From NCBI GenBank assembly GCA_004525545.1, contig SPCU01000006.1, positions 1-35,301 of the forward strand: a DNA stretch of 35,301 nucleotides. Direction: 5' to 3'. Of the stretch, positions 33,817 to 35,301 are shown one piece after another (the stretch's first letter is position 1; each line of letters begins with the position of its first letter). Made by a program: the position numbers and the translations under genes. Source of the stretch: Methanomassiliicoccus sp. GTDB lineage: Archaea; Thermoplasmatota; Thermoplasmata; Methanomassiliicoccales; UBA472. Below the pieces are notes generated by a model. It was not told the origin of the DNA, did no database searches, and was given only the letters and a program-made list of their open reading frames with translations.

Positions 33817-33990
33817 TCAAGGTTCCTTGATCGCGATGACGCGAGCAGAAGCGGAGGTGCTGACGTCATCGGTGCTGTAGAACGAGGCTCCGTACAAGGA
33901 ATCGCCGCTGGATATCGATGCTAGGTTGTATGGCGTATCGTTCAGCTGGCACTGCAGGGCGATGGCGCGCGGGAGGATTATGGTGTTCAT
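33817..33990 (-). CDS. 57-aa ORF of unknown function
   Basis: Hand-read: MNTIILPRAIALQCQLNDTPYNLASISSGDSLYGASFYSTDDVSTSASARVIAIKEP*. An AT-rich TATA-like stretch (attttttaaatatt) lies upstream on the minus strand. Confidence 0.45.
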   Translation of the reverse strand: MNTIILPRAIALQCQLNDTPYNLASISSGDSLYGASFYSTDDVSTSASARVIAIKEP

Positions 33991-34190
33991 GCCTTGCTGG
34001 AAATATTTTTATGAACAATATTTAAAAAATAGCCTTTGAGTTGCTTATTAGAAAATTGTTTGTTTCCTTGAACATCGATAGTAGAAACGGGGGCATCAGC
34101 CATCCGACGTATCCATTCCAGATCGATATCGTATTTCGTTGATCTCGATAATCGCGCCGTTCATTTTCACCGACCTCTCCCCTTCAGCCC

Positions 34191-34198
34191 TTTATACC
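34191..34198 (+). promoter_or_regulatory. TATA box for the RecA-like cassette
   Basis: tttatacc about 31-38 nt upstream of ATG 34229. Confidence 0.45.
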
Positions 34199-34228: not shown

Positions 34229-34966
34229 ATGTACCGCTCGATGCCGGAGACAGTGACCGAACCGCTGGTCCACGACTTCAATTCCGAATCGGATGGAGTG
34301 TTGGCCACCACCGCCATACCTCCGGTGGACGAACTGCTGGGGGGATTGAAAGCGGGCACCGTCACCACCATCGACAGCTCCGACCGGCTGCTGTTCACCC
34401 TGATCAACATGCTAAGCGTGAACTTCGTGCGGGAGTGGCATCGCGACGTGGTCTGGGTGGACGGCGGGAATTCCGTGAACCCTTACGATCTGACCTACGT
34501 GTGCAAGCGCTTCCGTATGAGGCCGGAGGAGACTCTATCCAGCATCAACGTGTCCAGGGCCTTCACCGCCTACCAGATGTCCACCCTGGTGGAGGAATCG
34601 TTGGAAGACGAACTGATGCGCAGCAAAGGCGGTATGATAGTCGTCTCCTGCTACCCCGACCTCTTCCAGGATGCCGATATGAATTGGGAGGAGTCGCTCA
34701 AGCTCATGGACAGGGGGATGAGCAAGCTGCGCTCCCTCACCTCCAAGCACCACACCGTGACGGTCGTCACCAACTACGGACTGGCGAAGCTGATGTACCG
34801 CAAGGGATTGCGGCCGCTGTTCTACGAGAAGGTCGACAGAGTGGTGAGCGTGGAGCACCGTTCCGGCTACGCGCGCATTTCCTTGCCCAGGGAGGAGAAG
34901 GAGATAATGTATCGTCCGGTCCCCCCGAACCAGACCACTCTGGATGAGTACCGGAGGCGCTGCTGA
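34229..34966 (+). CDS. RecA/RadA-superfamily protein lacking a Walker A motif
   Basis: 245 aa; PPVDELLGGLKAGTVTTIDSSDRLLFTLINMLSVNFV aligns by eye with the RadA/RadB entry sequence, but no GxxxxGK[ST] is present. VVWVDGGNSVNPYDLTYVCKRF, SINVSRAFTAYQM and GMIVVSCYPDLF follow. Confidence 0.7.
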   Translation: MYRSMPETVTEPLVHDFNSESDGVLATTAIPPVDELLGGLKAGTVTTIDSSDRLLFTLINMLSVNFVREWHRDVVWVDGGNSVNPYDLTYVCKRFRMRPEETLSSINVSRAFTAYQMSTLVEESLEDELMRSKGGMIVVSCYPDLFQDADMNWEESLKLMDRGMSKLRSLTSKHHTVTVVTNYGLAKLMYRKGLRPLFYEKVDRVVSVEHRSGYARISLPREEKEIMYRPVPPNQTTLDEYRRRC

Positions 34967-35205
34967 TGGGGCGTACGGTGCCGACATACCGCCAGGCAGC
35001 GGAATCAACGTTCCGCAACTGGAGCGATTTCCGGAGGGCGCTGTCTCAGGATGATCGGGAGGCTTTCGACCGTCTCTCGGACAAGGTGCGCCTGCACGCC
35101 TCGGCCTCCTCCGTGGCCGCCTTCCTGGACCCGTTGGAGGGGGCGTTGCTCTCCATACTTCTGGAGCAGGAGAAAGAGCTGGAACGTTTGCGTAAGAAGG
35201 CCTGA
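34966..35205 (+). CDS. Small helical protein of unknown function, coupled to the RecA-like gene
   Basis: 79 aa; WSDFRRALSQDDREAFDRLSDKVRLHASASSVAAFLDPLEGALLSILLEQEKELERLRKKA. Start overlaps the upstream stop (TGATG). Confidence 0.7.
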   Translation: MGRTVPTYRQAAESTFRNWSDFRRALSQDDREAFDRLSDKVRLHASASSVAAFLDPLEGALLSILLEQEKELERLRKKA

Positions 35206-35209
35206 TAGG

Positions 35210-35301
35210 ATGCGCGGATGGATCCTGGACTGTTATGCCGACGAGGTCAACAACGAGATGGTCACCTGGGTGAAGACCTCCGACGGCGTTGAGAGGATCA
35301 C
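35210..35301 (+). CDS. N-terminus of a protein cut by the window end, possibly a family B DNA polymerase
   Basis: ATG 35210, 4 nt after the previous stop: MRGWILDCYADEVNNEMVTWVKTSDGVERI... resembles the N-terminal strand region of archaeal PolB proteins. Only 30 codons are visible. Confidence 0.45.
   Translation, partial: MRGWILDCYADEVNNEMVTWVKTSDGVERI

Follow-up and report, generated by a model that had tools for sequence, protein, structure and literature searches.

A PolB2 mutasome operon of Methanomassiliicoccus has a bipartite promoter box in common with radA

The DNA analysed here (the window; 35,301 nt) is one whole contig, G000:C157, of a Methanomassiliicoccus genome. Positions 34229-35301 are the 5' part of an iRadA-PPB2-PolB2 operon, which almost certainly encodes a PolB2 mutasome, a known system. 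The operon is preceded by a bipartite box that also occurs upstream of the recombinase gene radA. The overall explanation that we favour, with good confidence, is a mutasome operon under a damage-type promoter common to radA.

The operon comprises three plus-strand ORFs. The iRadA ORF (34229-34966) has an ATG start and encodes 245 amino acids. The ATG of the PPB2 ORF (34966-35205; 79 amino acids) has one base in common with the iRadA TGA. A gap of 4 nt follows, and the third ORF begins with the ATG at 35210 in a frame that is open to the window end. The 1 nt overlap and the 4 nt gap are as given in the initial annotation. The window thus holds the first 30 codons of polB2 (35210-35301, plus strand). 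The remainder is on contig G000:C56, of which the first 141 nt are identical to the last 141 nt of the window; the completed product is 718 amino acids long. All three genes are unbroken and in the same order in G009, where iRadA is 98% identical. The order iRadA-PPB2-PolB2 is kept in 20 examined loci of the order Methanomassiliicoccales, some with DNA inserted before PPB2, and in most named archaeal loci, so the predicted gene neighbourhood holds up. Such conservation of gene order and sequence throughout Methanomassiliicoccales means that the arrangement is not due to chance. The DNA 5' of the cassette diverges strongly between species of the window's genus. It includes, on the minus strand (33817-33990), a 57-amino acid remnant that resembles the start of a 435-amino acid ORF in G009.

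A TATA-like box, TTTATA (34191-34196, plus strand), was read directly 33 nt 5' of the iRadA start codon at 34229. Alignment of upstream regions revealed a conserved element just 5' of this TATA; it is absent from the initial annotation and is the less familiar part of the locus. In the window the element is CATTTTCACCGACCTCTCCCC (34162-34182, plus strand; consensus YANTTTCRNNNAYCYCYCC), a candidate damage-response element recognised by its conservation across loci. The position of the TATA relative to the element is kept in relatives. The box is found before the cassette across the order, and before radA in the same genomes. The radA gene of the window's genome is preceded by CACTTTCGACCATCTCCC and then TTTTTAATA.

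We next turn to how often the box occurs. With zero mismatches, ANTTTCRNNNACCYCYCC gave 81 matches in 61 genomes, compared with 1 for a reversed-pattern control; these and the following counts are not independent events because the genomes are related. In ten genomes of the genus, CAYTTTCRNNNAMCYCY matched 18 times (control, 2): nine matches belong to the PolB2 cassette, six to radA and three to other sites. A looser pattern was present before 18 of 20 cassettes (shuffle expectation 0.17) and before 17 of 26 radA genes (shuffle expectation 0.37). By eye, the remaining radA promoters have shifted or degenerate copies. Conversely, the looser pattern was found at none of 30 orc1 promoters and at one of 20 second-orc promoters, or none of the 20 when a TATA was required. 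A few box matches fall inside coding sequence. Because pattern refinement and counting used the same genomes, the counts carry a bias, which is lessened but not removed by the reversed control, by the comparison with orc promoters and by the interrupted operons described below. The information content of our 28-promoter base table is similarly inflated, because sites were picked for carrying the box. A composite pattern with fixed TATA spacing was discarded as too rigid; it had no match even at the window site. Taken together, we regard the box common to cassette and radA as very probably a real sequence feature.

Other DNA lies between iRadA and PPB2 in five genomes of the order. All five of these interrupted operons carry a second box with a TATA, 64-68 nt 5' of PPB2. 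None of eight compact operons has a second box before PPB2. Each new transcription unit thus has its own copy of the box, as expected of a functional control element. The intervening DNA differs between loci. It amounts to 320-380 nt in L041 and L042, and is an inserted Cys-rich gene in L043 and L048, which represent two genera. We take the Cys-rich insert to resemble DUF2284, and a further inserted ORF in L048 to be cupin-like.

Elsewhere in the order, boxes precede genes for an Hjc-like nuclease, a C5-methyltransferase and TnpB-type proteins, and two small conserved protein families. The first small family (about 50-65 amino acids, WEE.Y.LYGV) lies 3' of the box in genera of several families (L166, L176, L178, L190, L213 and L253) and gave no Pfam match. 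The second (69-75 amino acids) follows box-like sites in three genera (L162, on contig G000:C98 of the window's genome, L195 and L211). At G000:C48:3244 and G009:C13:34555, the box and TATA are followed by a short stretch ending in a strong G+C hairpin and T-rich sequence; with no clear protein, this stretch is possibly a small RNA. Contig C1 of genome G036, which belongs to family f2 and has no cassette, carries 16 boxes (L214-L229), a total that overstates independent targets because most of these sites are copies of TnpB-type mobile elements. One box lies before radA and one before an Hjc-like gene. Most of the others sit in front of TnpB/IS605-type genes, where tandem ACTTTCGG copies are frequent.

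Outside the order, the strict form of the box gave 21 matches in 16 genomes, and the control none. These sites include radA, an SSB-like OB-fold gene, a phage-type integrase and solo PPB2 genes. The box is present at radA of Methanohalarchaeum, a haloalkaliphilic Thermoplasmata MAG, an ETNP Thermoplasmatota MAG and several Bathyarchaeota; overall, it lies before radA or the cassette in Bathyarchaeota and other archaea. The ANME-1 radA and cassette loci are without it. At L383, in the ETNP2 MAG, the gene 3' of the box is the phage-type integrase, an arrangement that would parallel SOS control of bacterial integrases.

The core of the box is not new. It includes ANTTTC, to which Orc1-2 binds as a damage element in Sulfolobales (PMC9738581), and the CACTTTC of TTTCACTTTCA, the UV-response motif that Boubriak et al., 2008 place 5' of TATA at the UV-induced Halobacterium radA1 (PMC2556686). 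They also list TTTCACTTTCA at top6B, vng17, vng280 and the radA genes of other haloarchaea and Methanospirillum. In the window, the ANTTTC hexamer is ATTTTC (34163-34168), 5' of the TATA at 34191, and ANTTTC falls in the invariant half of the box. The window copy, TTCATTTTCAC, is not an exact TTTCACTTTCA 11-mer and has only the CAYTTTC core in common with it. A TTTCACTTTCA-like motif does lie 5' of the TATA at radA in this genome and, by a strict pattern, in 17 of 26 radA promoters.

The Sulfolobales Dpo2 operon matches our cassette in polymerase group and in the ANTTTC core 5' of the promoter, and dpo2 is damage-induced in Saccharolobus (PMC9738581; PMC10470591). The element described here differs in that it is longer and bipartite (with a second half, AYCYCYCC), is also at radA, and does not occur at the second orc1/cdc6 promoter. 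Similarly, the haloarchaeal motif has the CACTTTC core and the site 5' of the radA TATA in common with our box; the C-rich second half is no part of the motif, and the PolB2 operon, Methanomassiliicoccales and Bathyarchaeota go unmentioned with it, in the portion of the haloarchaeal paper available (PMC2556686). Our literature search, outside which most subscription journals lay, found neither PolB2 operons nor Methanomassiliicoccales described as having the box. What appears new is therefore that the box occurs at PolB2 operons and in Methanomassiliicoccales and Bathyarchaeota, that it has two parts, and that interrupted operons carry a second copy.

Most of 41 genomes (G000-G040) encode two Orc1/Cdc6 proteins, one strongly initiator-like and one more divergent. 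We considered Orc1/Cdc6 autoregulation by an Orc1-2-type loop, as at Sulfolobus orc1-2, and found it unsupported; none of the 20 second Orc1/Cdc6 promoters has both box and TATA. For the same reason, we do not file the box under an Orc1-2 regulon.

The box could instead be a strong general promoter, an extended BRE with an upstream pyrimidine tract, at highly expressed or housekeeping genes. It does sit directly 5' of TATA, its second half is rich in C, a feature that BRE regions can show, and it also marks TnpB-type elements, a tRNA endonuclease and small zinc-ribbon genes. However, the strict pattern occurs only about once or twice per genome and, in the window's genus, mainly at two DNA-repair loci; the orc1 and orc2 promoters lack it. 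Furthermore, the invariant TTTC half is outside the BRE, and the core matches two published damage motifs. We thus consider a general promoter unlikely. Conversely, a damage-response function for the box common to cassette and radA is, on comparison with the published motifs, a likely one. The operon would be transcribed from a promoter with this bipartite box directly 5' of its TATA. Because the same kind of box precedes radA, mutasome and recombinase would probably be co-induced after DNA damage, although damage induction in this organism is something that we only infer.

The first protein of the operon was initially annotated as a RecA-family fold with no GK[ST] at the P-loop position. Both assignments were borne out. 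The 245-amino acid protein matches the PF08423 (Rad51) profile with 27.6 bits (cut-off 22). Its AlphaFold model (pLDDT 87.7) finds Rad51/RadA-family structures in Foldseek searches with E values of about 3e-14, and Rad51/RadA is nearer to it than RecA is. In alignment with RadA of the same genome, Walker A GEFGSGKTQ is replaced by IDSSDRLLF (residues 48-56; 34370-34396, plus strand). The Walker B aspartate is gone too (IVVSC, compared with LMIVDS in RadA), as is the N-terminal helical domain. The C-terminus reads Q-x-T-L-[DEG]-E-[FY] in 20 of 20 aligned orthologues of the order, and QTTLDEY in the window (34931-34951, plus strand). The resemblance of this motif to a PCNA-binding (PIP) motif is suggestive only. 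Of 61 genomes searched, from the order and close to it, 36 have a clear iRadA; in family f2, only one of 16 genomes does.

The 79-amino acid protein had been put forward as an undescribed adaptor. It is already described, as arCOG07300 and then PPB2 (PMC4104785; PMC11791011). Its N-terminus is MGRTVPTYR, carrying the MGRT sequence and Arg9. M1 and G2 never vary among 36 relatives, drawn from archaea and a bacterium, and Y8, R9 and W19 are each kept in at least 90% of them. The AlphaFold model is helical (pLDDT 88.9). A fold search returned no PDB relatives (best E 3.7) and a sequence search nothing convincing. Identity with DUF6809 was dropped, the match being weak (19.5 bits) and under the cut-off of 27. 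A one-frame PPB2-PolB2 fusion in L087 was also dropped, as the frame crosses undetermined bases. Of 293 genomes from the phylum, 113 have PPB2. Named relatives are mostly from Methanomassiliicoccales, with others in further Thermoplasmatota, Bathyarchaeota and a few bacteria.

The completed third ORF is a B-family polymerase, as its N-terminus had suggested; it matches PF00136 (E 2e-31), and the NCBIfam models nearest to it describe type-B polymerases. The protein has an intact motif A (DFTSLYPSIM). In 20 of 20 aligned sequences, motif C is HGIVDS; hence the first aspartate of DxD is missing while the second is kept. The exonuclease residues have been lost in the same 20 sequences (Exo I, VDLR; Exo II, GGDSFHL/FYL; Exo III, absent), whereas the other PolB of this genome retains DIE and YSDTDS. 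These losses are what a catalytically dead, regulatory homologue would show, in a cassette controlling replication or fork processing rather than lesion bypass, and PolB2 was read as inactive in 2014 (PMC4104785). Sulfolobus Dpo2, however, is an active polymerase despite a similar active-site substitution: it extends mismatched ends and ends opposite lesions (PMC8764526; PMC11791011). With motif A and the second aspartate of motif C intact here, we think a dead polymerase improbable. Rather, PolB2, with its altered active site and no proofreading, would extend primer ends past lesions, by homology to Dpo2. Before the palm domain, the D(K/R) motif has an invariant aspartate and reads LDKGSS in the window's genus and DR, DA or DS in other genera. 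PolB2 of the window's genus ends in QERLRDFY or a close variant, a near-canonical clamp motif that is absent from other genera. Clamp motifs would thus be present on both iRadA and PolB2 in this genus, which is suggestive only; such a pairing is rare (PMC11791011). In the Thermoplasmatota MAG Zod_Metabat.1462 (L131:4992-7691), PolB2 has a 167-amino acid insertion at LVT|CFGYTGY. The insertion starts with Cys and has HN at its end before Cys, and is intein-like.

The earliest mention of the operon is in Makarova et al., 2014 (PMC4104785). The PolB2 mutasome was defined by Timinskas et al., 2025 as PolB2, an inactive RadA (iRadA), and the protein previously called arCOG07300, PPB2, which bears an MGRT arm (PMC11791011). 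Our cassette has the same three genes, in one of the published orders. It also has the same protein features: iRadA without ATPase residues and with a clamp-binding-like C-terminus, PPB2 with MGRT and Arg9, and PolB2 without the first DxD aspartate and the exonuclease residues. Because these features define the published system, which is itself read as a translesion or repair cassette, the initial proposal of such a cassette was right. The differences are the additional C-terminal clamp motif of PolB2 in the window's genus, the D(K/R) motif, which is DK in that genus and DA, DS or DR elsewhere in the order, and the DNA between iRadA and PPB2 in some genera.

Our analysis shows the protein identities, the motifs, the gene order, and the box with its distribution; complex formation and lesion extension we infer from homology or the literature. 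According to the published models, iRadA, which retains the RadA fold but not the usual ATP binding and hydrolysis, would be a scaffold on which PolB2 docks and may contact PCNA through its C-terminus. PPB2 would be a helical bundle with its MGRT arm inserted between polymerase and iRadA near the DNA, and the complex would unite PolB2 and iRadA with a PPB2 trimer. The cassette works like E. coli Pol V (UmuC-UmuD'2-RecA) and ImuA-ImuB-DnaE2 in combining a translesion polymerase, a RecA-family protein and a small partner, but their polymerase families and small partners are unrelated. The earlier parallel with ImuA therefore stands as an analogy and fails as membership. Despite the RecA-fold partner, polymerase and small protein in one operon, kinship with the ImuA-ImuB-DnaE2 mutasome can be set aside, since it is contradicted by the family assignments: the polymerase is B-family (PF00136) and not C-family DnaE2, iRadA is nearer Rad51/RadA than RecA, and no ImuB-like Y-family protein or DnaE2 is among the ORFs listed beside the cassette.

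The PolB2 mutasome operon thus comes with a concrete, mutable DNA element that ties an error-prone polymerase complex to the recombinase gene radA. Our literature search found no description of a damage regulon in the archaeal groups that carry the box. We give roughly even chances to a broader proposal, that the box is an old archaeal damage element of Thermoplasmatota, Bathyarchaeota, haloarchaea and Sulfolobales that links the control of RadA to that of the error-prone PolB2 mutasome and, at some loci, has also brought SSB-like, Hjc-like and mobile-element genes under its control. Two testable questions follow: do archaea other than Sulfolobales mount a coordinated response of SOS-like transcription, and do the Sulfolobales and haloarchaeal motifs represent one ancestral element? 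If the proposal is true, the box would play the part in archaea that the SOS box plays in bacteria, uniting the separately published Sulfolobales and Halobacterium motifs.
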